This document shows positions 22,021-60,393 of a stretch of 64,000 bases of DNA, in pieces. Origin of the DNA: Agrocybe praecox. Its lineage: Eukaryota; Basidiomycota; Agaricomycetes; Agaricales; Agrocybaceae. Each line of letters starts with the position of its first letter. Within the stretch, counting starts at the first letter, position 1. A program made the position numbers and the translations under genes. The notes beneath the pieces were generated by a model. It did not search any database, was not told the origin of the DNA, and worked only from the letters and a program-made list of their open reading frames with translations. The stretch lies in contig OZ024841.1 of NCBI GenBank assembly GCA_964017145.1, positions 2,480,001 to 2,544,000 on the forward strand, read 5' to 3'.

Positions 22021-24716
22021 ATGGCAGCCTTTAGGGCTCTGTTATGGGGCGGAAACGCGAATTCTCTTATAAAAACGCGCTTTCGATTGAACGCGTTTCG
22101 ATACAATGCCGTTCGAAGGCAAATTCACCAGCTTAAAGGTAGTCCCTTCTCCGCAAAGTTGACAAATTGAAATATAATTTCAATTTCACCACGTTCTAGG
22201 TTTTGCGATTCCACCATCCAACGAATTGAAAACTATGTACACGCAACTTGCAGAAATACCTGTCCCGACGGCGGCGCAATTCCTGACCAGCAATGGTAAT
22301 CACCATATAGTTCTCGACGTTCGTATTCTTCTAACGTGAATTGCGAGGTCAGATTCAATCATCGTCACCGAGGTCACCTACTCGGTGAGGGACCATGTAC
22401 GAAACGCGAAGAGGACCGTGACAAAATCGATTGTGGTAACCCCCAAAGGGGATGTTGTTGCGACTACTGCACTCCGAGATGTCGATATTGTTGGACAAGC
22501 ACTGTCGCCATCGGGGAAGAAGAGGGCCCTATTGCGCAATGTGAAGGGAGGAAGTTCGAGGGTTATCGAGATATGGAATAACGGCGCACTAGAGGCATCC
22601 ATGGACGTTACTGATCAGCATGGAGATTTCTACACAGACGGTACGCCATTCAAAGTCATCCAAGCTGTCTTAACTCAATACGATCATGCTAGAATATCTA
22701 TCGTCTGTTGCCTTCTCGAGTTCTGAATCTACTGTCCTATATGTGGCTGAAGGCAAGGCCCCAGAAACCAAAAATCCCTTCGAGAAATATCGCTTCAATC
22801 CGGACTTTGGTGAAGGCTTAGATGGCAAGCGAAGGCCAACGGTTTTCCTCTACAAATGGGACGATCTTTCGTCATCTACGTCTACGAAACAAGGGTCACT
22901 TGCTCGTCTCAGAACACCAGAAGGAATACGGTTCGGCCAAGCAATCTTTTCCCCTAATTCTGAAAACATCATCTATGCAACTGGCTACGAATTCACACAA
23001 GATGGCAGATTACTAGGAGTCAAAGGATGCTACAATAGACCTACAGGGATTTGGCAACTTCAGTTGGACTCACACGACTCTGAAGAGACACCAAAAGAAC
23101 TTGTCGATATCAACACCAAGGTGGAAAAGTTGACCCCTCCTCATCAGTGTTGTCGTTCTCCGCGTGTCGTGACGCGCGATGGAAAATCCAGTCTACTGTG
23201 GTTGGCATCTCGAAGTGGTGGAGCTCATATCGCCACCCATGAGCTGCATTCTCTAGATATTGCCTCAGATGTCCAACAGTCTCTTAAAGACCTCGCTTCA
23301 AAGCCTCACATCACCGTTGTCGACGTTCCTAACGTGAATGGCTTCCCTGGACTTTATCCTACATACAACATTCCAACAGATTTTCTTCTTGAATCTTCCA
23401 ACAGCATCCTGTTGCATTCTCAATGGGGATCGCGTACCGTTTTACTCAACATTTCTTTGGCTGGTGGCACCAACGATGTGAAGAACCTTACGCCTAAATC
23501 TACTGAAGACCTATATACCTGGACCATGCTTGCCACGGATTCCAAATCTCGATTTATCTGCAGCCGCAGCTCTCCTTCTGTGCCCTATGAAATAGTGCTC
23601 GGTCAACTGGCCCCTTCGGGCGAAATTTCATGGCGTGTTCTTGACAAACCTGCATTGCCAAAATTGAGTCAGTATCGCGTATACTGTTGCTCGAATGATC
23701 TAATTTTCTTTCGCAGTCACTTCTGCGTTATCTGACATTCGTACCAGCATAGTTCCTATCCCTGACCGGGGCCTTGTGGAGACTATCGTTATTCAAGGAA
23801 AGCCGAGGAAAGACGGAACAGTCCCGCCATGTATCACCTCGCCACATGGCGGTCCTCATGGAACTACTTCTACGACGTTCTCGGCTTCGACTACCGCCCT
23901 CGTTCTTGAAGGATGTAAGTTCGTATTCAACTTTTCTAATGCATATTTTGAATCTATTTTGCGCAGACACTCTGGCTTTCCATAACTACACAGGCTCTCC
24001 CGGATTCGGAGAAAAGTTCTTGCAGGGCCTGGTAGGGAAATGCGGCGAACTTGACGTCCAGGATTGTATGGCATCCACAAAGCATTTAATTTCACTTGAC
24101 ATTTCGAAAGAGAGACCAGGAATGCAGTTGGTCATGGGTGGAAGTCACGGTGGATTCCTGACAGGGCACTGTGCGTCTTTTCATATTCAGCCTTCCCCAA
24201 TCTTTTCAATTCTAAAATCGACTGTTTATAGTGATCGGACGATTCCCCACGTTCTTCTCCGGTGCCATCATGCGCAATCCTGTTACAAGTGCTGGAGAAC
24301 TCTCGAATGGGGACATACCCGATTGGTACTATGCAGAGTTTGGCCATCCATACCCTATCTCTTCATCTCAGACATCCTCTACGTCGGTTTCTTTGCCTAA
24401 GACACTGCTACATCCTCCTCTGATGACTGCGGGGACGTACGCAAGCCTACGCTTGGCTTCTCCCATCGATCACATCGACAACGTTTGCATCCCTGTCTTG
24501 CTGCTGATCGGTGCGGCGGATAGGAGGGTTGCGCCTACTCAAGGAATTGAGTATTATCATGCGTTGAAGGCGAGATATGCTTCGAGCAAGGATCCCAAGA
24601 AGAAGGTGGAGATGTTAATGTTTGAGGGTGAGAGTCACCCTCTGGATGGTGTGGAAGCCGCGAAAGCTGGTTTCGAAGTCACGAAGGAGTGGTTTGCGTC
24701 AGCGGTTTCTGCTTGA
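22021..24716 (+). CDS. acylaminoacyl-peptidase (prolyl oligopeptidase family S9), copy 1
   Basis: Serine peptidase that removes N-acylated amino acids from peptides. Seven exons (22021-22138, 22200-22295, 22353-22640, 22693-23667, 23717-23914, 23967-24170, 24232-24716) join in frame to 787 residues. The N-terminal two thirds are propeller-like. The C-terminal alpha/beta-hydrolase domain has SPHGGPHG, the nucleophile in GGSHGG, the Asp in GAADRRVAPTQG and the His in GESHPLDG. From ATG 22021 the protein begins with about 40 Arg- and Ala-rich residues before MYTQLAEIPVP, where homologues usually begin. The lead may be a targeting peptide, or translation may start at the inner Met. The paralogue at 26486-29210 has the same exon plan. 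Confidence 0.92.
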
Positions 24717-26485: not shown

Positions 26486-29210
26486 ATGGCAGCCTTTAGG
26501 GCTCTGCCATGCGGCGGAAACGCGAATTTCCTCATAAAAATGCGCTTTCGATTGAACGTATCCCGATACGATGCCGTTCGAGGGCAAATTCACCAGCAAG
26601 GTTTGAGCAAGGTGATTCTTTCTCCGCAAAACTGAAATACATAAATAAGTACTTCAATCTCACCACATTCTAGATTTTGCGATTTCACCATCCCACGAAT
26701 TGAAAACTATGTACGAACAGCTTGCAGAGATACCTGTCCCGACAGCGGCTCAATTCTTGACCAGCAATGGTAATCACCATGTAGTTGTCGACGTTCGTAT
26801 TCTTCTGACGTGAATTTTGAGGCCAGATTCAATCATCGTCACCGAGGTCACCTACTCGGTGAGGGACCATGTACGAAACGCGAAGAGGACCATGACAAAA
26901 TCGATTGTGGTAACCCCCAAAGGGAATGTCGTTGCGACTACTGCACTCCAAGATGTCGATATTGTTGGACAAGCACTGTCGCCATCGGGAAAGAAGAAGG
27001 TCCTCTTGCGCAATGTGAAAGGAGGAAGCTCGAGGATTATCGAGATATGGAATAACGGGGCACTAGAGGCATCCATGGACGTGACTGATCAGCACGGAGA
27101 TTTCTACACAGATGGTATGCCATTCAAAGTCATCCGAGCTGTCTTAACTTAATACGATCATGATAGAATATCTATCATCTGTTGCCTTCTCGAGTTCTAA
27201 ATCTGAATTTACTGTCTTATATGTTGCCGAAGGAAAGGCCCCCGAAACCAAGAATCCCTCCGAGAAATATCGCTTCAATCCGGACTTTGGTGAAGGCTTA
27301 GATGGCAAGCGAAGGCCAACGGTTTTCCTCTACAAATGGAAAGCTCTTTCGCCAACTACGTCTACGAAACAAGGGTCACTTGCTCGTCTCATAACACCAG
27401 AAGGAATACGGTTCGGTCAAGCAATCTTTTCCCCTAATTCTGAAAACATCATCTATGCAACTGGCTACGAATTCACACAAGATGGCAGAATACTGGGGGT
27501 CAAGGAATGCTACAATCGGCCTACAGGGATCTGGCAACTTCGGTTGGAACCATACAGTTCTGAAGAGACACCAAAAGAACTTGTCGATGTCAGCATCAAT
27601 GTGTTAAAGTTGACCCCTCATCATCAGTGTTGTCGTTCTCCGCGTATCGTGACGCGCGATGGAAAAGCAAGGCTACTGTGGTTGGCATCTCGAAGTGGTG
27701 CAGCTCATATCGCCACCCATGAGCTGCATTCTCTGGATATTTCCTCAGAACAGTCCTTTGGAGACCTCGCATCAAACCTTCACATCACCACCGTCGACGC
27801 TCCTGACACGAACGGCTTCCCTGGACTTTATCCTACATACAACATTCCAAAAGATTTCCTTCTTGAATCTTCCAACAGCATCCTGTTGCATTCTCAATGG
27901 GGATCGCGTACCGTTTTACTCAACATTTCTTTGGCTGGTGTCCCCAACGATGTGAAGAACCTTACGCCTAAATCTACTGAAGACCTATATACCTGGACCA
28001 TGCTTGCCACGGATTCCAAATCTCGATTTATCTGCAGCCGTAGCTCTCCTTCTGTGCCCTATGAAATATTGCTCGGTCAACTGGACTCCTCGGGCAAAAT
28101 TTCATGGCATGTTATTGACAAACCTGCATTGCCAAAATTTAGTCAGTCTCGCGTATACTGTTACTTGAATGATGTTCTAATTTTTTTCCCCAGTCACTTC
28201 TGCGTTATCTACAATTGGTACCAGTATAGTGCCTATCCCTGACCGGGGCCTTATGGAGACCATCGTTATTCAAGGAAAGCCGAGGAAAGACGGAACAGTC
28301 CCGCCATGTATCACCTCACCACATGGCGGTCCTCATGGAACTACTTCTACGACGTTCTCGGCTTTGACTACTGCCCTCGTTCTTGAAGGATGTAAGTTCG
28401 TATTCAATTTTTTTAATGCATAATTTTGAGTTCATTTTGCGCAGATACTCTGGCTTTCCCTAACTACACAGGCTCTCCGGGTTTCGGAGAAACATTCTTG
28501 CAGGAGCTGGTAGGAAAATGCGGCAAACTTGACGTCCAGGATTGTATGGCATCCACAAAGCATTTAATTTCACTTGACATTTCGAAAGAGAGACCAGGAA
28601 TGCAGTTGGTCATGGGTGGAAGTCACGGTGGATTCGTGACGGGCCAGTGTACGTTTTTTTCATATTCAGCCTCCCCCAATCTTTTCAGTTCTAAAATCGA
28701 CTGTTTATAGTGATCGGACAATTCCCCACGTTCTTCTCCGGTGCCATCATGCTCAATCCTGTTACAAGTGCTGGAGAACTCTCGAATGGGGACATACCCG
28801 ATTGGTACTATGCAGAGTTTGGCCATCCATACCCTATCTCTTCATCTAAGGCATCCTCTACGTCTGTTTCTTCACCTAAGTCACCGACACCTCCTCTGAT
28901 GACTGCGGGGACGTACGCAAGCCTACGCTTGGCTTCTCCCATCGATCACATCGACAACGTTTGCATCCCTGTCTTGCTGCTGGTCGGTGCGGCGGATAGG
29001 AGGGTTGCGCCTACTCAAGGGATTAATTATTACCATGCGTTGAAGGCGAGATATGCTAAGAGCAATGATACCAAGAAGGATCCCAAGAAGAAGGTGGAGA
29101 TGTTAATGTTTGAGGGTGAGAGTCACCCTCTGGATGGTGTGGAAGCTGCGAAAGCTGGTTTCGAAGCTACGAAGGAGTGGTTCGCGGCAGCGGTTTCTGC
29201 AGCTACTTGA
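26486..29210 (+). CDS. acylaminoacyl-peptidase (prolyl oligopeptidase family S9), copy 2
   Basis: Same enzyme type and exon plan as copy 1: exons 26486-26600, 26674-26769, 26827-27114, 27167-28141, 28194-28391, 28445-28648 and 28711-29210, 791 residues, no frame break. The nucleophile (GGSHGG), Asp (GAADRRVAPTQG) and His (GESHPLDG) are all kept. The internal exons have exactly the same lengths as in copy 1 (96, 288, 975, 198, 204 nt), which indicates selection against indels in both copies. Differences are scattered substitutions plus a few extra residues near the C-terminus (a TKKDPKKK-type insertion). The N-terminal lead (MAAFRALPCGG) is again basic. Both copies are predicted active. Any division of labour, for example localisation, is unknown. 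Confidence 0.92.
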
Positions 29211-36376: not shown

Positions 36377-37393
36377 CTAGTACTTGGTATAACCCCCCTT
36401 GGCCTGTAATACAGCCTGAATCCTTCTAGGCATACTCTCTATAAGATTCTGACAAACAGAAGCTGGAATATCATTCCATTCTTTTTGTACCCTCTCCCAC
36501 AGCTCCCCAATTCCAGAAGGTTGCCTCTCATAGCCTCCAAGTTTAATTTTGATATGATGCCAAAGATGTTCAATTGGATTTAGGTCAGCTGATTGAGGGG
36601 GCCACTCCATGAGTTGTAATCCACTGCTTTGGAGCCATTTCTGGGCCTTTTTGCTCTTGTGTTTGGGGTCATTGTCCTGCTGAAAAAGGACATCCTCTGG
36701 TTTTTTGTTGTAATATTCCAGGCTCTGCATGAGTTCATCATCCAAAATGCTGACAAATAGATCAGCATCCATCCTCCTATTGATCTTGGTCCCATATCCT
36801 ACTCCTTCCCAAAACATACAGCCCCAGAACATCAAGTTTCCTCCTCCAAACTTGACTGTTCCCTGCACCAGCCTATCGGTCAACCCCTCTCCCTCCCTTT
36901 TCCACACCCACCTCTTCCCATCTGACCCCAAACGATTGATTTTGGTCTCATCTGTCCAGCAGACCCTCTTCCAGTCATCCACTGTCCAGTGTTTGTGTGC
37001 TTCTGCATAGTCCATCCTCATCCTCCTATGCCTTTTGGAGAGAAAAGGCCGTTTTTGCTTTGCCACAGCCTTCATACCAACTCCATGGAGTGCTTGGCGT
37101 ACTGTCTTTTCAGAGAAGGATGTGTTGGTCATGTTTTGTAATGTTTTGGTGGCATCAGTGGCACTGTCAGCCTTCTGAGAGGTGATAAGACAGATAGCAT
37201 AATGGGTATCGGTAGGAGAAAGCTTGCGTGGATGGCCACCAGCAGCTTTAGAAGTTGATGATCTATATTTGGAGTGGATATTGGATATAGAACCGACACT
37301 TATGCCAGTGGTGGTGGAGATTGAATGACCAGAAAGACCTTTGTCAAGGAGTTCAAGAACACGAGTGAGTTGAGCAGGAGTGAGTGATCGCAT
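36377..37393 (-). CDS. Tc1/mariner transposase
   Basis: Cut-and-paste DNA transposase of 338 residues in one uninterrupted exon. The N-terminal third is a pair of helix-turn-helix-like units (LTPAQLTRVLELLDKG, ISVGSISNIHSKY). The DDE core shows WTDETKIN (first Asp), LFQQDNDPKHKSK (second Asp) and PPQSADLNPIEHLW (Glu), a DD34E arrangement typical of Tc1. FWGCMFWEGVG lies between the catalytic residues as expected. No stop or frameshift is present, so the enzyme could still be made. The left arm has lost its tip, so the element itself may be immobile while its protein might act on other copies. Confidence 0.95.
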   Translation of the reverse strand: MRSLTPAQLTRVLELLDKGLSGHSISTTTGISVGSISNIHSKYRSSTSKAAGGHPRKLSPTDTHYAICLITSQKADSATDATKTLQNMTNTSFSEKTVRQALHGVGMKAVAKQKRPFLSKRHRRMRMDYAEAHKHWTVDDWKRVCWTDETKINRLGSDGKRWVWKREGEGLTDRLVQGTVKFGGGNLMFWGCMFWEGVGYGTKINRRMDADLFVSILDDELMQSLEYYNKKPEDVLFQQDNDPKHKSKKAQKWLQSSGLQLMEWPPQSADLNPIEHLWHHIKIKLGGYERQPSGIGELWERVQKEWNDIPASVCQNLIESMPRRIQAVLQAKGGYTKY

Positions 37394-43735: not shown

Positions 43736-44570
43736 CACTTCAGTGGACCCATTCAAGGTACCTCCTAGGCTACAGAATTTGACACTTTATTGCAGCCTAG
43801 AGGGGTCCAAGAAAAAGAACGAAAAGTTGGAAAATAAAAAAAGAAAATCATATGTTTTTTTTCTTGGCGTTTTGATAATGCCAAGCTTCTTTTGTGACTT
43901 GAAAAACTTTTGTCACCTTTGAAATTTGTAAAATATATAAGGGTTCCAGGGGTCTTTGTATTACATTTTAAATACAAAAAAAACATTATTTTCTGGGCAA
44001 TTTGTACCTACTTTATGGGTGATTCTGTATGTATTTGGACTTTGTTTTTGCTGTTTTTTGTATGCTACTGAGCTTCTATGAGCACTATTGGGGGCTATGT
44101 ATATAAATGTGTTTTGCATAATTTCAATGATGATATAAAACTTTTAAAATGTGCTTCCACCCTTTGTTCATTGCATTGGTATCTCCATGAAGCTTGGATC
44201 ATTGACTTGGGCAAGGAGGTATACTTGGGTATGAAGGTTGATGTAAGTGGGCTGGTTGATTTATTGACTTGGGCAAGAGTGTAGACTTGGGTGTGAAGGT
44301 TGGTATGGGTAGGTCAGTCAATTCATTGACTTGAGCAAGGGGATATACTTGGGTATGACAGTTGACATTGGCATGTTGGTTGATCTATTGACTTGAGCAA
44401 GGGGGTATACTTGGGTATTATGTGTAAGGTAGGTTGGTTCTTTGATTCATTGACTTGGCCAAGGGGGTATACTTGGGTGTTATGATTAAGATAAGTATAT
44501 TGATTGACTGATGAACTTAGCAAGTGACTGTGATAAAGTATACAATTCCAATGTTTTCTTCTTTCTTCTT

Positions 44571-44601
<31 letters not shown>

Positions 44602-45279
44602 TTTTTTTAATTTTCATTTTCTTTTATTCAATTTTCTTTCCCTTTCTCTTTCTAATCTATATACATTTTTATGATGCCTTTTTAGCTTTCTTTTCAATCT
44701 TTCTTTCTTTGCTTCATTTTTAATTGGTCTTAAAGCTTGTCCAACAATCTTAACAATGGCTACAAATAGCTTGAACATTTGATTCAATCACTGGTATTAT
44801 CTATTTAATACCTTTCGTTCAGAAAACTCACCAAATTTACAGTTAGTATTCACTTGATATTGAAAATAGTTGGTCAGTCTACATCAGAATGTTTAGGTCT
44901 GAGTTGCATTGCTTAGCTGGATAGACTGCATGTACCCTGTCTTGCAGTTGTTTCTTGTTTCTTGCTTCTTTTTTTCTTTCTTGTTTCTTGTTTCTTGCAT
45001 TTTCATTTTTTTTTTTTCATTTTTTTCATTCTTTTTCTTCTTCTTTATATCCTTTAAAATTTTATGCTTGATTTTCTTTTGCTTGATTTTTTCTTTCCTT
45101 TCGTAATCTACACCAGTTCTTATACTTCTTTCTCCAATATATTGCTATTTGGATTGTAACATCATGACATATTATTATGTCTCTTTTCATTTCTTTAAGC
45201 AATGGCAAAGCAGGTATGAACATTTGTTCTATTGTGTGGTATTATCTATTTAATACCTTCTGTTCAGAACACTCACCAA
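43736..45279 (+). repeat. left long inverted repeat
   Basis: Reverse complement of the right arm, starting at the shared tip and ending at the phrase CACTCACCAA. It contains a minisatellite and a short pyrimidine tract that are much longer in the right arm. Confidence 0.85.
44195..44500 (+). repeat. minisatellite in left arm, period about 60-66 nt
   Basis: Units contain TTGACTTGGGCAAGG, GTATACTTGGGTATGA and a GGTTG/GGTTGATT spacer. About five imperfect units. The reverse-complement partner in the right arm is at 60075-60393 and 62100-62320. Confidence 0.75.
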
Positions 45280-46327
45280 ATTTACTTGAACCACATTGTA
45301 TGTGCTTTAAAATGCTCAACAGTTCCTTGTTCACTTATGCATACATTTGGACCTCTCTTTTTGCCTGATTAGTACATGATGAGGCCTGGATTATGCAATG
45401 TATTTTTTGATTTTTGATTTTTGATTTTTGATTTGATTTGATTTGATTTGTTTTTTTTTGGTTTTTTGCCCAAGTTGTTCTTTTTTTTTTTGTCTTTTTC
45501 TTTTTCTTTTTCTTTGTGTTTTTGTTTCATTTAAATACAACAGGAGCACACATCAAAGTATTAAAAGTGAAGTAGGGGAATGAGAGAATGAATTAATACT
45601 TGTTTTTCGATGAAACATAATAATAAATATGGTTGTCCTCTGCTTTTATTAATCTGTGTGTGAAAAACACAGACTCAGGCTTCTCATACCCTGAATTTTG
45701 GAATACAAATATATGTATACACACAACTGGTATATATTAGGATGTATTTTTTATACATGTATTACCATTTACTGTCTTAAAGACTTGTAGAATTACCACT
45801 GCTTAGACATATTCTATATTTATTTGTATGATAATTGACTTAGGCAAGGAGTGATACATTTTGACACTCTGGCTTGATCAAATTTGAATGGCATCACACA
45901 TGAATGTAAAACAAAATAATGGTTGTGGTAATAATTTTAATATATTATGTATTTATGACAATGATAGCTACGTAGTCCGGATTGACTACCAAAACTCTTG
46001 TGCATCCAAGTATATGAAATCACAATCACATGGAAAAAATTAAGTAAATGTAAGATAAAAAATACTATGGAAATAAGAAATTAAGCTAAGCTATAAAATA
46101 GTTGTTGAAAGAGAGTGGTATGATGCAGAATGTCATATATGGTACATAAATGGCATAAATGATGCAAGGTAAAGTCCAAATGAATGTGTTCGTAAATATA
46201 TGCAAGGTAAAGTCCAAATAAATGTGGTCGTAATGTATGCAAGATGAAGTCCAAATGAGTGTGGTCATAAATATATGCAAATGATAACAAAAAAAGAACA
46301 AAAAGGAAATAAAACAAGACAAAACAC
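45280..46327. other. AT-rich spacer between left arm and cargo gene 1
   Basis: It holds T-rich tracts including a TTTTTGA/TTTGA run at 45400-45460. No gene. It ends at the stop codon of the minus-strand cargo gene. Confidence 0.45.
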
Positions 46328-49300
46328 CTACTTTGGAGATGTATTGGAAGGATAAAGAGAGCGTTTCGAAGGAGGAGAGTTTGGAATATTAAATGAAACA
46401 CTAGGGCATGAATGATTGGATGATTTGGCAGTGATTGGCAACATAGACATTGGGTTAAATCGAGAAGAGAAGGGAACAGGGGCACTGGGAGCTGATGCCT
46501 GACCAACTTTGACTCTTTTTGGTGGCCCAAACTTGAGCGGCTTGTTGGTGAAGTCAATATGCATGGAGGTAGAAGTTGATAACATAGATGTAGAAGTGCA
46601 TGATGTAGACCTAGATGCTGAAGTGCTGGGTGTAGATGCTGAACTGCTGGAAGTAGATGCAGAAGCAGTCCCGGCAGCAGCAGCAGGAGTGAAGGTGGAG
46701 GAAGATGCCACTGGAGGGGGAGGATAAGAAAGCCTGGGAAGACGGATCGGAATGAGTGTTGACTCAGCCCGAGACTTTGCGAGACCCTTCGTCATCCTGT
46801 TTAAGACATGCTGACCAATATCTCCTCGAAACAAGGAGTGTCGAGCAGTTGCAGGTCCAGCTGATGGAAGGAGTTGCTTCGTAATAGCCACATCTTCTCT
46901 ATTAGATAGAGAAGATTTTGTCATAGAAGGCATGTTAGATAGAGAAGATTTTGTGGAGATGGAAGATTGGGGAAGGGATTCAGAGGGGTTATCCGGATTT
47001 TCGTCAGAGTCAGAGTCTTCAAAATCTTTGTCTTCAGAGGTGGGAATAATGCCATCTGATATGCCATTGCAGAAGTCCTTGACAGTGACTAGGACATCCC
47101 CAGTTTCGGATATGAGCAATGGAATCTTGTAATATTCGTTGCTGTTTCGAATATGGGAGAGTTCTGCTAAAAAAGACATAAAAAAGCGAACACAAAAATA
47201 AAACAAAGAACACATACCAGTTGACCATCCCTCCAACTTTAAATCATCACCCGATGTAGCTATGCAAAGGGCCTTCCAACCTTGTGTGCCCAACTTCAAG
47301 TTCTTTTCGAACATGCCATTATGAGGAATGTGGTTCGACAGGAGGGAAGGCCATCCAATTATGCGAAATTTAAACTGGAAAGCTTCTGCAGTGAGATGCT
47401 TCCAGTGAATATTTGCGCGTTCGGAACGATTCGGAATGAACTTGGCTGTAAGAGGTACAACATAAGCAGAAGAAAAAGACTGAGAAAGAAAAAAAAACAT
47501 ACCAATTTCGACACCCAATCGGAACTTCGTGACACTACGAAAATCTCCTTCCCTCCAAGAAGCCTTGCGAATTCCCTTTGAAGGCGCAGAGGAAGACAGA
47601 GTTGCGGGCCTAGGTGCAGAGGAGGACGGAGCTGCAGGTTTAGGTGCGGATGAAGACGGAGTCTTGAGTATCCCCTCCAACTTTGACTGAGCAAGGTGAC
47701 CTCTGTATATTGTATAAGAAAAAGAAAAACATACAAGAACATAAAAATAACTTACCGAAGAACATCTCCGGCGCCTTCGACGATCTCCTTGATGTGCGGA
47801 ATGGTTTCGTCCACCAATTTTGCATTCGCCTCACTGCCGACGACCATGCCTGAGAGCAAACGAGAGGCCGGACAGTCCCCTATGTTGATGAGGAAGCCCA
47901 GGATGAGCTGATCAGGGTTGTAGACAGTTAAAGTAGAGAACTTTGAACAAAAAATAAGAAAAACGTAAACAAAAAGAGAGTGAAATACTTACCAGTTTAA
48001 CCATCTGCACTTTCGAGATGTTCATCCTTTGAGAGGCACTCTTCATGGCGCGCGGATCGTTTGCGAGCTTCTGCAAGTCCTTGAGGATGAAGGCCTTGAC
48101 CTTTGCTTTCAGCTCGGGGTCAAGAACCAGATAATCCTTGTATAGGACTCTGCAGCGCTTGCCGAAAACCTCGACTGGAACAAGCAAGGAAAACATGAGA
48201 CGACATTGAATAAAATAGAATAAAAAAACACTTACGAGCCTCCAAGGCATCCTTGTTGCCCCCAAGGACATCCACATCTACGTCAACTTCCATTGAAGGG
48301 TCAGGACCTTCGCTCTCCACATATTCCTCCAAATTCTCGAAGTCACTGCCTTCCCATTTCCGAAGGGCAACCCATTGCTGGAACAAATTCCAGAAATTTG
48401 TGTTGCGCTGGGGGTTGGAGATCACATTGGCGGTTTTCAATACCTCCTCCACCGTGGTCTTGTGCTCTTCAGCAAGGGCAGCAGCGTACGTGGAGATGAG
48501 CTCCCCGAGCTTGACAGCCGCAGCAACGAACCCCTTCGAGCTTCGGTGAACAGGCTCCGCCTTGTCTGGGTCCATTGAAATAGGGCGAGTAGGCCAAGCT
48601 GCCAGCGTGTGCGTTGAGGTTAGCACTGGCGATGCCTGGCGAGCGGCCAGCGCCTTCAGAGACTTGGATTTCTTGGGCGGGCCTATACACAATGCGGGCG
48701 CATCAGCACCAACAGGGCTGGCACCGGAAGTCGTTTGTCTACCGGTAGCAGTGGAAGTTGAGCATTTGCGAGCTCTAGGAGGACTTGACGGCACCAAATC
48801 GTCGTCCATAGAGTCGTCAGACTCTTCGGAAATCGACAATTCCCTCGCTTGTCGACGAAACATCCGAGTTGTCTTCTCTTTGAGGACACTCTCCCTGTAG
48901 TCGGAGCCCGAGAGATCACTTTCGAGCGGCATTCCCCCGATGTCGTCCATGGCGACGTCGCTAATGTTGTGGTCCTGAGGCGTATCTTCCATGGTGACGT
49001 CCTCAACGCCCTTGTCGCTGTCCTTCTCCTTGCACTTCCCATTCTTCACTTCCTCACGGCGTGCCTTGAATTCTTCGACATCGGAAACCGACCCCCAAGT
49101 TCCTTCATCGTTCTGGGTATCATCGGTGGCACCCATTCCCTCCTCAGACGAACCCCCCATCGAAACGTAGACCTTTTGAGGCCTTCGAGGCATCAAAACG
49201 CCGTCAAACTTTTGACGGCGTTGCTTCCAAGCAAGCATAGCCTGAGCGCGGGGGAGGCGCTTCGCATGGCATTCATCGAGAGGGATCTCGACGTAGGGGA

Positions 49301-50323
49301 TGTCAGGACGTCCCTCGGTATCCTCAAAGTCCGGAGTATCCAACTCCATGTATTCCCTCCTCTGCGCATCCTCCTCCTCCTCCCCCTCTGCCACATCCAT
49401 GTCCTCCTCTACCCTATCCACGTCCTTGCTCTGTTCCTCACTATCCAATGGCCCCTTCCCCTTCTTCGCAAGTTCGTGGGGTTCCCTTGCTTGCTTGAGC
49501 TTTCGAATTGCGTCGCAGAAACGACATTTCCTTTCTTCTTCTTCTTCGGCAACTTGTAGAGCATGTGCTTGCTCGTCGGCGAGTTGCTGAACCTTGTTGT
49601 TATTGAGTTCGGTTTCGATGCTGCCTGAAGCTGGGGTGCTGAACCGTCATGATAATTAGTGTAGATACATTAAAATGAGCTTGAATGAAACTTACGATTG
49701 GAGAGAATTTGCGCCGTTATCCACTGAAGCGCCAGACGATGGAGCTGGAGAAGCGGCACTGAATAAATAAATAAAAATGATTAAAAATTGGCAGAAAATC
49801 CAGTACTTACCGAGATTCGGTACATGCATGACGAGCCGAGCGCCTAGAGAAAGATATTAACTTCGAAAACTTATCCTACACATTACAATGTAGGAGGGGC
49901 AAAGAGCACGCGACAATATCAGCGTGCTCAGTTTGAGGTTTGCAACGATGTCAGCAAACCTCAGTATAAGCAACGATGTCAGCCCAGTGGAAGACCCCTC
50001 CAAATTGAATGTATAGGCGGGAAAGGGGGCAGGGTAATTACCTCCTGGGCGCCGTTACCGGGCTCACGCATTGGGGGGGGAGAGCCTAGAGACGTGGCAA
50101 TTAGCATGGAAGGGAGGGATATCGAAGGTGGGCTTACCTTTGCCACCTTTCTTCTCTGACCCGGTGTCTTCGCCTTGGTAGAGCAGGCTACATCCTGCTC
50201 GAAAGTCCTGTAAGCGCCGATGGAAAGGAGGGTAGGGAAGGAAGGGACGCGTACCTTCTCATTTCTGGACCGTTTGGCGGGAGGGGGAGTAGAGGCGTCG
50301 TCGGCCTGCCTCTTTCGCGACAT
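46328..50323 (-). CDS. large unknown cargo protein 1 (11 exons)
   Basis: Not recognised as a known family. From ATG at 50323 (MSRKRQADDASTPPPAKRSR, basic and nuclear-signal-like) eleven exons join in frame to about 1,100 residues, ending at TAG 46330-46328. One exon border is a 198-nt intron (50041-49844) that holds three of the hairpins below. A coiled-coil stretch (TELNNNKVQQLADEQAHAL) leads into a CxxC pair (RKCRFCDAIRKLKQ) and a long acidic region. The middle is globular (NFWNLFQQWVALRKW, then FGKRCRVLYKDYLVLDPELK). The C-terminal part is Ser/Thr/Ala low complexity. The composition is GC-richer than the KDZ gene and its arms. It is divergent from the gene at 53074-55299, with about 2.7 kb of patterned DNA between them. 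A nuclear role is a guess. Confidence 0.75.
49904..49986 (-). ncRNA. hairpin cluster I: three hairpins inside an intron of cargo gene 1
   Basis: The hairpins are at 49904-49929 (8-bp arms, GAGCACGC on plus), 49934-49963 (10-bp arms, TGAGGTTTGC) and 49967-49986 (5-bp arms with two G-U pairs). In the sense (minus) strand each core is T-GAY-ATN-GTY. In the first, C to T gives a U-G pair; in the other two the closing GTT still pairs with GAC by G-U. A fourth palindrome with a different core lies at 49874-49895. Confidence 0.7.
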
Positions 50324-50627
50324 GGTGGTTCAGGAAGAAGAATGGGATGGCAAGTCCCTGAGATGTATGCTGGCGGGATGTGATGGTGATGCTGTAAGCC
50401 TGTGAACTTATAGTCGGTTAGCGCGTATAAGCACATTTTTTGATTGAAACTCACCGGTTGTTTGCAATTTTGGTCGTAGGATCTGTTACAGGTATATGAT
50501 TGAACTAAATGTCAAATTTTTTGAAAGGGAAAACATCTTACTTACCGGATAACTCGCTATTTCCGCAGGTCGCACACGCCAAAGTTGTTGCAGAGGCTAG
50601 TGGAGATTTTTCCGTAGAGTGAAAACA

Positions 50628-50716
50628 ATCTGGTGACAATGTCAACCAGATGGATTAGCATAGCGACAATGTCAGCTATGCATAATGACAAAGGAGCGAC
50701 AATGTCAGCTCCCTTG
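50628..50716 (-). ncRNA. hairpin cluster II: three hairpins upstream of cargo gene 1
   Basis: The hairpins are at 50628-50651 (arms ATCTGGT/ACCAGAT), 50658-50681 (GCATAGC/GCTATGC) and 50689-50716 (9-bp arms with one G-U pair in the sense strand). All three have the core GACAATGTCA on plus, that is TGACATTGTC in the sense of the minus gene. Leader introns between here and the ATG (donors near 50546 and 50454) suggest the hairpins are transcribed. Confidence 0.75.
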
Positions 50717-50961
50717 TACATGTAGGAACGGGATAAAGAAGAGCAAGTCGTTAAAGTTCCCAATTAGCCGGAATTTCAAAGTCCGTTCTGAGCTTCGAAG
50801 TCTGTTCCGAGCGCCGAGCTATAATTGGAATCAGCGGAGTTCTATTGGGATCCAGATCCATATCTATAATTGGACCACCAATCTGTATCGCAATTTCAAT
50901 CTTTGCATCTTCTTTCTCAACCACCACTACCATCTTTCCTTTCTTCCTCTCCCTCCCATCC

Positions 50962-51047
50962 AAAGGCTGACAACGTCGCCTTTCTCAACAGCGAGCTGAC
51001 ACGGTCGCTCGCTGTTCTCGCGATGAGCTGACAACGTCGCTCATCGC
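50962..51047 (+). ncRNA. hairpin cluster III: three hairpins upstream of cargo gene 2
   Basis: The hairpins are at 50962-50983 (arms AAAGGC/GCCTTT), 50987-51016 (10-bp arms AACAGCGAGC) and 51020-51047 (9-bp arms GCGATGAGC). The cores TGACAACGTC, TGACACGGTC and TGACAACGTC all read forward, in the sense of the plus-strand gene. Confidence 0.75.
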
Positions 51048-51243
51048 CTAGTCATGGCTTGTCCGTTCCCCTCAACCTGACCGCCAACAACTGCCTCATA
51101 CCCCTTCACACAAACAACAAATACATTATCTGCATTTCCCTACAGCCGTCCATCATCTAATCTTCAACTCAAGTTCTGTTTCGCAGCCACCTAGGCCCAA
51201 CGCCTCTTTATCCATCTTTCCTTTCTTCCTCTTCCTCCCATCC

Positions 51244-51328
51244 AAAGGCTGACAACGTCGCCTTTCTCAACAGCGAGCTGACACGGTCGTTCGCTGTTCT
51301 CGCGATGAGCTGACAGCGTCGCTCATCG
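51244..51328 (+). ncRNA. hairpin cluster IV: second copy of the triplet
   Basis: The hairpins are at 51244-51265, 51269-51298 and 51302-51329. Relative to cluster III there is one arm change in the second hairpin (C to T opposite G) and one in the third (C to T opposite G); both leave G-U pairs. The loop of the third changes from AAC to AGC. Confidence 0.75.
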
Positions 51329-51471
51329 TCTGGTCATGGCTTGTCCGTTCCCCTCAACCTGACCGCCAACAACTGCCTCATACCCCTTCACACAAACAAC
51401 AAATACATTATCTACATTTCCCTACAGCTGTCCATCATCTAATCTCCAACTCAAGTTCTGTTTCGCAGTAA

Positions 51472-52460
51472 TCGCATGTGATTTCAACTCAAAGGTAAGT
51501 TTTGTATTTCCTCACAGCCGTCTACCATCTAATCTTCGACTCAAGTTCTGTTTCGCAACCACCGATAGCCCGCGCCTCTTTATCGCCTGCTCGAGAGTTT
51601 CTAACAAACTTTATGAACCTCTAATCAGACGCGATTTCAACTCAAAGGTAAGTTTTCGTATCTATTCACAACTGTCTACTATCTAATTTTCAACTTAAGT
51701 TCTATTTCAGCCGTCTACCATCTAATCTTCGACTCAAGTTCGGTTTTGCAACCACCCATACCCTGCACCTCTTTATCACCTGCTCGGGAATTTCTGACAA
51801 GCTATATGAACCTCTAATCGGACGCGATTTCAACTCAAAGGTAAGTTTTTCTGTTTCTTCACAGCCGTCTACCATCTAATCTTCGACTTAAGTTCCACAA
51901 ATGAATCGCGGTCTGATGCTGGAAATTCATCTTACATATCTGAAAGTGCCTCTGAAATATCCGACCTGTCGCAGCTCATGGAGTTTACTCTCCCGCTTGG
52001 CCAATCATTATGACCGGCAGAACAAGACGAAGCTTGGTTGGCTTTGAAACAAATGACACATTCTGCTGAAGACTTGTCTGGTCCCGACCCGTCTTCGGAC
52101 GAAGAAGAACGGGAAACAGGAGAGGATATGAATTTGGAGGACGCAATGGCACGTCTTCGTAGTGCACGGGATTCTCTAGCGCCTCTACAAATCGACGAGT
52201 TTTATGAAGAACAAGACGATACATTCTCTAGTTCAGAAAACAGCTTTAATGACAACGGTGACGATAACAGAACAATGAATCTGAGTCAAGTCCTCAGTCG
52301 AGCCGTCCATCGTCTAATTCGCAACCACCGAGACCCCGCGCCTCTTTATCGCCTGCTCGGGAATTTTTAACAAACTTTATGAACCTCTAATCGGACGCGA
52401 TTTCAACTCAAAGGTAAGTTTTTTTGTTTATCTACAGCCGTCTACCATCTAATCTATCAC
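51472..52460 (+). repeat. repeated exon-like units with donors and acceptors
   Basis: A block of about 110-130 nt, from CCGTCTACCATCTAATCTTCGACT to GCGATTTCAACTCAAAG, is repeated at 51518-51647, 51711-51840 and 52303-52413, with partial copies at 51472, 51865 and 52438. Each full block ends at a perfect donor (GTAAGTTTT) and starts after an acceptor (CACAG/TTTCAG/CTACAG). A non-repeated acidic coding-like stretch (51894-52300) sits between. The blocks could be mutually interchangeable leader exons of cargo gene 2, or remains of an exon-duplicated gene. Confidence 0.6.
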
Positions 52461-52837
52461 TACCTAGACCCACAACGCAGATGCCGTTCATCACTGCTGT
52501 CCTTTTTTGTTCCACCGGCCTCTTTTTATGAAATTTCAGCTTAGTACTTACCACTTCATTGTCTTGCCTTTCTATTATATCACTATAACCTCTTTCATAT
52601 TCCAAAATGTCCTGATTTCTTATCAGTTATCGATTGCCACGCATCTTGACTCGTTTAACCTTAAGCTTTACCCGAAATATATATAACACGCGCAAACCCA
52701 TCGACTTTCACATGTTGCCTTTCTTTCTGCCACCACCATAATTACCTGCTTTCCTCCATTCTTTGTTTGCTCCTTCTCTAAGACCACTGGTATGTAGTAC
52801 TTTCAAATCATGTTCTTATTGTGGGGCTCAGGGGCAT

Positions 52838-52925
52838 CGGGTTGACATTGTCACCCGTCTGAGAGTGGTTGACATTGTCACCGTTCTCAAAATCAAGAGC
52901 AGGGCTGACATTGTCGCCCTTCTTT
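52838..52925 (+). ncRNA. hairpin cluster V: three hairpins near the start of cargo gene 2
   Basis: The hairpins are at 52838-52857 (arms CGGGT/ACCCG), 52861-52888 (9-bp arms closed only if two G-U pairs are allowed) and 52895-52926 (inner arms AGGGC/GCCCT, extendable to 10 of 11 pairs). All share the forward core TGACATTGTC. They lie about 150-240 nt before the candidate ATG. Confidence 0.75.
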
Positions 52926-53073
52926 TCCCTTTGTTGTTCACGTGGGCTTGCACGCTTATCCTCTGTCCAGTTTCTTTTCTTCTATACCGTGACCTATTGG
53001 CGGGATTCTACTATGTCCAGTCCAGGTTCATGACACGTGTCCCATTCCATGCCATCTCTTACAAGTCCACTAG

Positions 53074-55299
53074 ATGTCTATGTTGATGTTTATGGGCTCA
53101 AACGAGGGATCATTTCAAGACAGGTCGTCCTTGAAACGAGACGCGACAACTCGCGACGTATGTTTTTGACTTTTTCTCTGCTTTTTTAATCTCATTTTTG
53201 GTCGCCGTTTTAGCAACTTTTGCAACAGACGCGATTTACTTTCTCGAGCTCAACTATAAACTGAAGATTTTGATACCTGGGCTGACCGCCCCACCAGTTA
53301 ACTACGACGTGAACGGGAATCCCTTTCCAACCAACTACTTCCTTACGTCGCCAAACATGCCCTGTTGTCCCGACCTTTGTACCTATTCCCCACATGTCCA
53401 GGCAAGACTCGACGGTGGATACCACACGGGCGACTTCACAAAATCTCCTCAATTCTACGACGAAGCTGCTCCACACATTCCTTTCGTTCGCTCACGGCCT
53501 TCCAACGACGACCTCGCAGACCATGAGCATCAATGTGCATGGTTTGTTCTTGACAGATCCCAGTTCATCAGGGAGAAAGGATGTGAAACCCAAGACCTCG
53601 GACGAATCAAACAGACCGTCACCTTCGACATAGCGGCAAGCAGGAAGACCCTGGCGGAGAAAGTAGAAAAGCTTGTCGCCAAAAAAAGGCGCCCGGCGGG
53701 CGATTATGCTCCTATGTTGGAATGTGCTACGTTAATGCACCACTGTATCCTCGCTTTGACTTGCGCACACATGTCTTATAACAGAACCGTTCTTACCTTG
53801 GCCTTCTTCCAGCGACTGTACCTCGAAACCTTGGCCTGGTACGACTATTTGAAAACGTTCTCGCTCATGGAACCACTCCTTTTGACACGCGAGCCCATCT
53901 CTCCCCAACGTGAACTCATGGGCGCAATCACGGCAGACAATGAAGTTGCGACAAGGTTATACACCATCGGGATTCCAGTTTGGCTCCTTCAACCACCTCA
54001 TCTTTTTTCAACGTCCTCTTTCATGTGTATGGAACCCGAAATAATGGAGCCAACCAACATGGAAATCGCGCCCATGCCAGGTTTCTCTTCCGTCGCTGCC
54101 CCTGTGGCAGACGCCAACCGCATTAGGATTTGTCAACGCGATCACCCCTACGCTACTCCACCAGAGACTCGACAGGTTCTGATTGACGCTCGTATGTATT
54201 TTATTCCGTTTTTTTTTTTTTGGAATGTTTATCAATTATATATTTTTTTGTAGCTAGTTTTCCTCCTACAGGCGCATCATCCTCTGGAGCTGGTGGTGGT
54301 GCTGTAATGTGGAATGCCACTTTCACCGTCAATCAGTCCGTGAATTTTGTGGTGCAGCCTCTTACCTTCAACGAAGGCAAATTCGCCGAGCCTGTCTGTC
54401 CTCATTACACCATGCTTGTGACAACACCCGCGTGGACCAATGCTCTGAAATCTGTTGTTCGCAACCCTCTACGCGTTTGGAACCATGCCGACCTCTTTCG
54501 TTTACGCGGGTATCAGTATATCGATCCGTATATGCTTACCGGGAATGATCTCACCAAGATCAAGAGTATTGCGTTGTGCTGGTTATCCATACATATGTCT
54601 TGGATCACCAGATCTCACGCGCGCACCCACAATATCCAAATTTCGTTTCCACAACCTCAAGATTGGAAAGACTATTTCTGGTATGTTGTTACACACGTGA
54701 TCGGCCTCGATGGCGGAATCCATGGCAACTCTCGCAGGGGCAAGAGTGTCCAGGACCTCAAGACATTATTCAATGTTACGTTGCCTTTGTCTCCTCAACC
54801 TGTCAGGGTAATCTGGATGAAGAAGTTAATTGTGTGCGCTGACGAACCGGACAAAGCGAGCAAGATTACCCCCAAGATCTTGCGCGAGATCCTGTGGGAT
54901 GCCTTCGAGAACAACTTTTGTCTCGAATTTCTTGTGCTGGACCGCTGCATTTTACCTCGGAGTGGATTGAAGGCAGAAGTTGCGCGCGCTTGTGATGGTG
55001 CTGTTGCCCAATGCTTCCCTGACCGTCAGCATATCATCACGGAAGTGCAACATGTTGATGAAGGGCTCTGTGCTGCTAACTGGATCGCTCGTGCTACCTA
55101 TGTAGAGTACTTCCGTCGCGTCGTTTCGGGATGGAGGGGTTCCGAATCTGTACGACTCATGAATATGAGACTTATAGAGGGTGAATACACTGAAGAACAG
55201 GTTGCAGCTGTTGAGAAGCTGGCCTTTTCAACGTATTGCCAGCATTTCTTCGAATGGTTTGGCCGTGCTCCTACTATTCCTCATCGCGTCCTGATTTGA
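53074..55299 (+). CDS. large unknown cargo protein 2
   Basis: Not assigned to a known domain. The coding part is secure from 53214: one exon to 54191, an intron 54192-54253, and a last exon to the TGA at 55297-55299, about 670 residues. Recognisable blocks include FLELNYKLKILIPGL, TREPISPQRELMGAIT followed by LYTIGIPVWLLQPP, and KIKSIALCWLSIHMSWI. The style is that of dispersed multi-copy Agaricomycete proteins of unknown role. The first exon is unsettled: ATG 53074 with the good donor at 53158 gives the wrong phase for the acceptor at 53214; other choices need a weak donor. It is transcribed away from cargo gene 1. Confidence 0.7.
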
Positions 55300-59003: not shown

Positions 59004-59754
59004 TGTATATGTAAGATATGTAATATACAAGATTCTGTATTAGAATGGGTCCTATTTTGAAGAAAATTGGTGAGTGTTCTGAACAGAAGGTATTAAATAG
59101 ATAATACCACACAATAGAACAAATGTTCATACCTGCTTTGCCATTGCTTAAAGAAATGAAAAGAGACATAATAATATGTCATGATGTTACAATCCAAATA
59201 GCAATATATTGGAGAAAGAAGTATAAGAACTGGTGTAGATTACGAAAGGAAAGAAAAAATCAAGCAAAAGAAAATCAAGCATAAAATTTTAAAGGATATA
59301 AAGAAGAAGAAAAAGAATGAAAAGAATGAAAAAAAAAATGAAAATGCAAGAAACAAGAAACAAGAAAGAAAAAAAGAAGCAAGAAACAAGAAACAACTGC
59401 AAGACAGGGTACATGCAGTCTACCCAGCTAAGCAATGCAACTCAGACCTAAACATTCTGATGTAGACTGACCAACTATTTTCAATATCAAGTGAATACTA
59501 ACTGTAAATTTGGTGAGTTTTCTGAACGAAAGGTATTAAATAGATAATACCAGTGATTGAATCAAATGTTCAAGCTATTTGTAGCCATTGTTAAGATTGT
59601 TGGTCAAGCTTTAAAACCAATTAAAAATGAAGCAAAGAAAGAAAGATTGAAAAGAAAGCTAAAAAGGCATCATAAAAATGTATATAGATTAGAAAGAGAA
59701 AGGGAAAGAAAATTGAATAAAAGAAAATGAAGATAAAAATTAAAAAAGATATGA

Positions 59755-59978
59755 AGAAGAAAGAAGAAAGAAGAAAGAAGAAAGAAGAAAGAAGAAAGAA
59801 GAAAGAAGAAAGAAGAAAGAAGAAAGAAGAAAGAAGAAAGAAGAAAGAAGAAAGAAGAAAGAAGAAAGAAGAAAGAAGAAAGAAGAAAGAAGAAAGAAGA
59901 AAGAAGAAAGAAGAAAGAAGAAAGAAGAAAGAAGAAAGAAGAAAGAAGAAAGAAGAAAGAAGAAAGAAGAAAGAAGAA
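59755..59978 (+). repeat. GAAGAAA heptamer array
   Basis: About 31 copies of a 7-nt unit. The left arm has only about three (44559-44578, reverse complement), so the array grew after the arms formed. The Lys/Glu/Arg open frames over it are artefacts. Confidence 0.95.
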
Positions 59979-60074
59979 AAAAAAAATGAAAAAAAAAAAA
60001 AATGAAAAAAAAAAAATGAAAACATTGGAATTGTATACTTTATCACAGTCACTTGCTAAGTTCATCAGTCAATC

Positions 60075-60393
60075 AATATACTTATCTTAATCATAACACC
60101 CAAGTATACCCCCTTGGCCAAGTCAATGAATCAAAGAACCAACCTACCTTATACATAATACCCAAGTATACCCCCTTGCTCAAGTCAATAGATCAACCAA
60201 CATGCCAATGTCAACAGTCATACCCAAGTATATCCCCTTGCTCAAGTCAATGAATTGACTGACCTACCCACACCAACCTTCACACCCAAGTCTACACTCT
60301 TTCCCAAGTCAATCAATCAACCAGCCTACCTACACCAACCTTCATACCCAAGTCTACACTCTTGCCCAAGTCAATGAGTTAACATACCTACCT
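60075..60393 (-). repeat. minisatellite in right arm, part 1
   Basis: Units contain CCCAAGTATACCCCCTTG and CCAAGTCAATGAAT. This is the reverse-complement version of the left-arm array, cut by the insertion at 60398. Confidence 0.75.

Follow-up and report, generated by a model that had tools for sequence, protein, structure and literature searches.

The question raised by this stretch of the Agrocybe praecox genome is why fifteen small hairpins of one architecture and dissimilar stems should be found beside two divergently oriented genes. The window, that is the whole stretch of 64,000 nucleotides analysed here (contig C2, OZ024841.1, positions 2480001-2544000, in a surveyed genome of 59.2 Mb and 347 contigs), carries these hairpins in the central part of a roughly 16-kb DNA transposon with long inverted ends, which belongs to the KDZ (Kyakuja/Dileera/Zisupton) superfamily. 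All comparisons between elements were made inside this one genome. On comparative grounds the hairpins are a structured module of a KDZ family, made of RNA or, less likely, of DNA, with strong support for a function. We lean, by a small degree, towards the view that they serve as cis-acting RNA operators of this transposon family, through which both genes would be controlled jointly at the post-transcriptional level.

Each hairpin in the window consists of a stem of variable sequence, a single bulged T (U in RNA), three GAC/GTC pairs and a loop of three bases. The initial annotation had listed fifteen such structures, six on the minus and nine on the plus strand. All fifteen were found again within 1 nt and on the strands claimed, and the hairpins of related elements likewise lie on the sense strand. 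In twelve the core T-GAC-NNN-GTC is exact and the stem measures 5 bp or more; the cores at 49904, 49934 and 49967 each contain a single G-U pair. Together they form five triplets, at 49904-49986 and 50628-50717 on the minus strand and at 50962-51047, 51244-51329 and 52838-52926 on the plus strand (Table 1). The stretch that holds the triplet at 50962-51047 is duplicated in tandem at 97% identity, and the triplet at 51244-51329 lies in the duplicate, so that these two are not independent. The architecture stands as first described; that description did not contain the triplet as a unit, the KDZ host, the cloverleaf fold of an intron in the companion gene and the lineage-specific loops and bulges reported below.

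The frequency of the pattern sets it apart from shuffled sequence, a comparison that the initial annotation had called for. Against the twelve exact hairpins, 40 shuffled versions of the window (first-order Markov) contained 0.075 on average and never more than 1; three cores at triplet spacing are present at 23 places in the genome, the reversed pattern at one. These sites lie in the window, at C2:3716-3741k, C8:2417-2421k, C9:1538-1540k, C148:30k and C276:4-27k (contig and position) and on C211, where the match is a simple repeat. The pattern loci that were fetched proved to be related elements with minus-strand triplets on one side and plus-strand triplets on the other. As the exact pattern is blind to lineages with a bulged A or a two-base loop, described below, further elements may exist; the comparison took in a minor part of the KDZ matches in the genome, of which there are at least 176.

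Selection on pairing, as opposed to selection on sequence, is well supported. Of 133 core matches, 96 passed a pairing filter; among the 37 that failed, 28 are antisense counterparts of a retained hairpin and nine are not. The 74 distinct KDZ-element hairpins among the 96 make up set A1. In A1 290 cells are compensated, compared with a mean of 108.8 after shuffling, and the covariation score is 0.641 against 0.174; neither value was reached in any of 500 shuffles. A control with slid pairing partners gave at most 87 compensated cells and a score of 0.213. Compensatory changes are also found at homologous sites, for example GG/CC to AA/TT between C2:3716k and C9:1177k. The GAC/GTC pairs never vary in A1 because its rows were chosen by that core, and the pairing filter inflates the observed covariation, so that a test on the window with a covariance model built from other elements is cleaner. 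Of the 64 rows of A1 from outside the window, 53 went into this model, R1; the other eleven (near-duplicates and a few that are poorly paired) were kept out by hand. R1 recovers fourteen of the fifteen window hairpins with E values from 2.5e-8 to 0.03 and misses the one at 49967; all other matches in the window have E values of at least 0.58, the best of them being the antisense of a hairpin. Over 19 further sources R1 gave E values below 0.05 only in L048-L051, L056 and L058. Two loci with a single pattern, L052 (C13) and L053 (C10), contain no such hairpins, the best R1 match being one of E 0.07 in L053.

By its sequence the host element is a KDZ transposon: it encodes a PF18758 transposase domain and a CxC-type cysteine cluster and has terminal inverted repeats. 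The inverted ends share a block of 737 bp at 97% identity and a second one of 464 bp at 92%; they are embedded in tandem repeats, where no target site duplication could be resolved. Terminal inverted repeats are known in Zisupton and in KDZ1-3, and the target site duplication of Zisupton has 8 bp. The transposase, the CxC1 cluster and the terminal inverted repeats resemble those of KDZ1-3 of Cryptococcus as presented in the main text of PMC12810828, and the transposase is likewise similar to that of the fungal families in the main text of PMC12730594, according to which Kyakuja families have no terminal inverted repeats. The companion gene on the minus strand is followed on the plus strand by gene B and then by the KDZ/CxC1 transposase. 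Open reading frames (ORFs) at 48123-49646, 47915-48277 and 46331-47830 were assigned to the companion via homology. Gene B, split in the window, is a single ORF of 723 amino acids in an element on C276; it may form one gene with the downstream transposase or be separate from it.

Eleven matches to gene B in the genome represent ten copies, the one at C9:1536k being in two pieces. Hairpins adjoin eight of the ten: those in the window, on C148 and at C276:24k, C9:1536k, C2:3715k, C8:2421k, C9:1176k and C8:1702k. A gene B fragment at C276:15.8k has no hairpins in the adjoining stretch, and the copy at C10:2307k, itself a weak match (E 6e-5), is accompanied by one weak candidate (E 1). A further hairpin cluster at C276:4k, close to where the contig ends, has no visible gene B; in total nine copies with hairpins are available. 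The KDZ loci at C3:2314k, C5:2405k and C9:743k have neither gene B nor such hairpins in the 5-5.5 kb of each that were inspected, which we regard as neutral evidence. As separate observations, C276 (35.9 kb) contains pieces of several KDZ elements in both orientations and constitutes a nest of rearranged copies, and of the two UGU-lineage elements at C8:2417-2421k and C2:3716k one has some 2 kb that the other lacks, with an overlap of a few bases at the junction, which looks like a nested insertion.

The nine copies share a layout. Sense-strand triplets lie in a predicted early intron of each gene as well as in an apparent leader of the companion, and six copies (the window, C9:1537k, C148, C276:4k, C276:25-27k and C8:1703k) also have them in the gene B leader and hence show all four types of site, with three hairpins not recognisable at every one of them. 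The leader triplets are found in the predicted 5' leader, often with a pyrimidine-rich stretch upstream and outside any clear intron, and the intronic ones inside early introns with splice-like GT..AG borders. Extra tandem copies of leader triplets are common, as in the clusters at C2:3716k, C8:2418k and C8:1704-1705k. Orientation is invariably sense: 87 of 87 filtered hairpins beside a gene on the six contigs first read, and likewise in the elements at C9:1177k and C8:1703k. This reflects one inherited layout rather than many independent events. Positions in predicted leaders and introns, always in the sense direction, fit RNA. Between the leader triplets and the intron of gene B, at 51469-52470 of the window, we also noted repeats, some 190 nt per unit, that contain a splice-like 5' site of the sequence GGTAAGTTTT and could supply alternative leader exons.

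While the stems vary freely, the tips are fixed within lineages and differ between them. An AUN loop with a bulged U is present in 43 of 43 filtered hairpins of the window lineage outside the window (C9:1537k, C148 and C276), and a UGU loop with a bulged U in 31 of 32 of a second lineage (C2:3716k and C8:2417k). The twelve hairpins of the element at C9:1177-1179k have a bulged A, with UGU or UGC as the loop in eleven and UAU in one. The element at C8:1703-1707k, found via the model, has 19 sense candidates with a bulged U, 13 of which pass the pairing filter; the loop is of two bases in 17 (UU in fifteen, CU and AU in one each) and UUU in two. Changes of the tip extend across the sites of an element. 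Between the window and the other three lineages the identity of gene B is down to 31-35%, from which it follows that the hairpin module is old. Such lineage-specific tips suggest a trans-acting binder that coevolves with the element. Apart from these lineages, the loci L048-L051 (C6:2701.5-2703.5k, C6:2775.4-2777.4k, C6:2867.5-2869.5k and C2:2895.2-2897.2k) are related to one another and carry the same type of hairpin on one strand, with AUC, UAC, UGU or AGA loops; no similarity to gene B or the companion was detected within the 2 kb read, and they may be relics or a fifth lineage.

A protein-binding site is the best explanation for a hairpin with these properties: a fixed tip on a free stem, three copies per site, the same tip beside two genes and changes of the tip by lineage argue together for the binding sites of a coevolving protein, and placement in both leaders and introns suggests joint control of translation and splicing. 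In the proposed mechanism both divergent units, the companion on one side and gene B with the transposase downstream on the other, carry the three-hairpin module, and a protein that recognises both sequence and shape, in all likelihood a product of the element itself, would bind the tips, three per site, at the bulged base, the GAC/GUC clamp and the loop. Binding on leaders would hinder translation or scanning, binding on introns would hinder or license splicing, and both units, hence transposition, would be dosed together. The simplest model would be autorepression that limits transposition, in analogy to phage coat operators and the autoregulation of ribosomal proteins. More tentatively, we put forward as a real possibility, short of a probable one, that this is a hitherto undescribed RNA operator system of a eukaryotic DNA transposon, in which an element-encoded protein reads the triplets in leaders and introns of both genes and the families within one genome have diverged into distinct recognition codes (loop, loop size and bulged base) that insulate their regulation from one another.

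Several observations weigh against RNA operators, and some of them lend weight to other readings. Leaders and introns were read from the sequence, and the transcription starts, the splicing, the binding protein and the sense in which it would act are predictions. The gene B leader triplet was not seen in three of the nine copies (C2:3716k, C8:2417k and C9:1177k), one of them incompletely readable, and older copies have one or two recognisable hairpins at many sites. The loops of the gene B leader triplets in the window (AAC, ACG, AAC and AAC, ACG, AGC) break the rule of one tip per element. The rows of A1 were picked by core and pairing filter, and the finding that ten of ten variable pairs show two-sided change was matched, as a count, by 14 of 500 shuffles. 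In gene B and companion proteins no Pfam family exceeded its cut-off and no RNA-binding domain was detected by this search, one companion member had a weak match to CTU2 (E 0.0015, under the cut-off), a sequence search of the PDB found no match for gene B and weak ones (E 0.18-0.2) for the companion, and gene B had no relative among viral contigs. AlphaFold models of the two proteins, with predicted local distance difference test (pLDDT) scores of 49 and 45, are too poor to use.

Further points bear on the choice between RNA and DNA. The three leader triplets fold with z values of -5.6, -5.6 and -4.1, and the two antisense strands tested fold equally well (-6.1 and -5.4), so that fold energy alone cannot separate RNA from DNA. 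In the window the deviations from Watson-Crick pairing in the stems are all G-U plus one C-U, as the initial annotation had stated; the homologues show a mere 1.7:1 bias. Across 96 distinct hairpins of gene-B-type elements G-U pairs outnumber A-C mismatches on the sense strand by 48 to 28 (p = 0.03), an excess that shrinks to 43:27 without the window (p = 0.07) and to 27:18 when only the six innermost pairs are counted (p = 0.23). Where the core departs at a single position, the departure is G-U in four of five cases. The excess favours RNA without settling the matter, and because it is modest a role at the level of DNA retains some weight. Cruciform or single-stranded structures could, for instance, be internal sites for the transposase or for a DNA-binding companion protein, and the host is after all a DNA transposon in which the sites bracket a divergent promoter region and A-C mismatches are tolerated (28 of 76). 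We nevertheless regard this as unlikely, since the uniform sense orientation towards two divergent genes, the placement in introns, the excess of G-U, a bulge that breaks palindromic symmetry and the closing stems of the companion introns all speak for RNA.

These closing stems are in turn an argument for a different RNA-level function, namely splicing geometry that joins the distant splice sites of a long intron, or else binding of a host protein. The companion intron of the window measures 198 nt, compared with 47-57 nt for its four neighbours, and its closing stem would bring the ends together. It folds into a cloverleaf with a z value of -5.95 that none of 200 shuffles equalled, the closing stem itself having p = 0.003. 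Closing stems were tested at 31 sites, comprising 27 of 34 sites plus four from C9:1177k; seven incomplete ones, including the companion intron of C148, were left out by hand, and the element at C8:1703k lay outside the test. All seven companion introns tested have one (duplex energies of -24.6 to -38.6 kcal/mol), and six of them surpass shuffled flanks at p ≤ 0.023, with p = 0.28 at C8:2417k. The gene B introns do not show this feature: closing stems are no better than shuffled at five of five sites (p 0.20-0.55), and the whole fold of the window intron is unremarkable (z -1.22, 26 of 200 shuffles equally good). Neither do 16 of 19 leader sites (p > 0.05), the exceptions being C2:3717126 (p 0.007), C8:2418278 (p 0.037) and C276:26561 (p 0.007). 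Host-protein binding or splicing geometry, which we judge somewhat less likely still than a DNA-level role, does not account for the leader copies that lack closing stems, for the bulge and the unvarying GAC/GTC clamp or for the distinct tips of coexisting lineages. Small-RNA or silencing precursors, another suggestion of the initial annotation, are highly improbable. Small RNAs from hairpins have been studied in fungi (PMC9757828), but a microRNA-like precursor has a long stem with a conserved arm, and here stems of about 5-16 bp with loops of 2-3 nt combine free stem sequence with fixed tips, the opposite of what a conserved small RNA needs. That the hairpins are functionless repeats, multiplied in tandem or copied from place to place inside the element, is the hardest of all to credit: tandem copies do occur (in the window and at C2:3716k, C8:2418k and C8:1704-1705k), but the stems at separate sites are unrelated and compensated and the tips change jointly across the sites of an element.

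RNA operators bound by a protein have precedents, none of which matches the present hairpins. In the coat operators of single-stranded RNA phages (MS2, PP7 and Qbeta) a bulged A on the 5' strand of the stem sits a few pairs beneath a small loop, and the bound protein represses translation. The hairpins described here are likewise short and combine a small loop with a bulged base on the 5' strand a few pairs away from it; phage operators differ in comprising one hairpin per site, without copies in introns, and in their bulged purine, whereas in these eukaryotic elements triplets at several sites carry a bulge three pairs below a loop of 2-3 nt, which is U in three of four lineages and A in one. 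The iron-responsive element, through which a trans-acting protein controls translation, has a bulged C and a CAGUGN loop; it is likewise a bulged hairpin with a variable stem in 5' leaders, but the loops found here are mainly AUN, UGU, UGY and UU. The constitutive decay element recognised by the animal protein Roquin is a Y-R-N triloop without a bulge in 3' untranslated regions. It shares a variable stem and a triloop, the UGU of one lineage being a Y-R-Y triloop, and differs in that the element hairpins have a bulge (by construction of the set) and AUN and UU loops that do not fit. RNA-level control of transposase is established for the third intron of the P element and for the antisense RNA of IS10, which resemble the present proposal in principle but are not known to have repeated bulged-hairpin operators. 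The initial annotation knew of no described family of this form, and none emerged: Rfam gave no match at E ≤ 1 over 49000-54000, no description was found in the literature searched, which lay largely outside subscription journals, and neither "hairpin" nor "stem-loop" occurs as a word in the main texts of the KDZ papers PMC12810828 and PMC12730594. A Helitron 3' end was considered because a hairpin is followed by CTAG or CTGG at triplets 3 and 4, and was dropped as triplets 1, 2 and 5 lack this sequence.

Elsewhere in the window, an open frame of 338 amino acids on the minus strand (36377-37393) resembles a transposase of the Tc1/mariner type, and two adjacent, clearly similar open frames on the plus strand (22686-23735 and 27160-28242) appear by eye to be tandem gene duplicates.

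Table 1. Features of the hairpin-bearing KDZ element, in coordinates of the window; gene structures are predicted.
Feature	Position	Strand	Basis or remark
Hairpin 1.3, companion intron	49904..49929	-	core GAT-ATT-GTC with G-U; scan and model R1
Hairpin 1.2, companion intron	49934..49963	-	core GAC-ATC-GTT with G-U; scan and model R1
Hairpin 1.1, companion intron	49967..49986	-	core GAC-ATC-GTT, weakest; scan, missed by R1, present in minimum free energy fold
Hairpin 2.3, companion leader	50628..50651	-	scan, model R1, folding
Hairpin 2.2, companion leader	50658..50681	-	scan, model R1, folding
Hairpin 2.1, companion leader	50688..50717	-	scan, model R1, folding
Hairpin 3.1, gene B leader	50962..50983	+	scan, model R1, folding
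Hairpin 3.2, gene B leader	50987..51016	+	scan, model R1, folding
Hairpin 3.3, gene B leader	51020..51047	+	scan, model R1, folding
Hairpin 4.1, gene B leader	51244..51265	+	tandem copy of triplet 3; scan, model R1, folding
Hairpin 4.2, gene B leader	51269..51298	+	tandem copy of triplet 3; scan, model R1, folding
Hairpin 4.3, gene B leader	51302..51329	+	tandem copy of triplet 3; scan, model R1, folding
Hairpin 5.1, gene B intron	52838..52857	+	scan, model R1
Hairpin 5.2, gene B intron	52860..52889	+	scan, model R1
Hairpin 5.3, gene B intron	52895..52926	+	with C-U mismatch; scan, model R1
Predicted companion intron, 198 nt	49844..50041	-	holds triplet 1; GT..AG from sequence
Predicted intron upstream of gene B coding ORF, 181 nt	52790..52970	+	holds triplet 5; GTATGT..CAG from sequence
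Companion gene	46331..50323	-	first ATG taken at 50323; homologues in other elements
Gene B	53135..55296	+	two overlapping ORFs, 53135-54250 and 54187-55296
CxC1 cysteine cluster of KDZ transposase, PF18802	56179..56541	+	E 1.3e-7, 32.1 bits, cut-off 26.9
KDZ transposase, PF18758	56866..58997	+	two ORFs here; E 3.4e-34 and 5.3e-26, over cut-off
Left terminal inverted repeat region	44199..45287		with tandem subterminal repeats; compared with inverted right end
Right terminal inverted repeat region	59060..60377		outer boundary not resolved

If the hairpins are indeed RNA operators, splicing and translation of a KDZ transposon would be controlled in a coordinated manner, and the coexisting transposon families of this mushroom would represent a natural set of orthogonal RNA-protein pairs with swappable tips. 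The way in which large fungal DNA transposons limit themselves would thereby become accessible to experiment, with the lineages serving as built-in controls of specificity.

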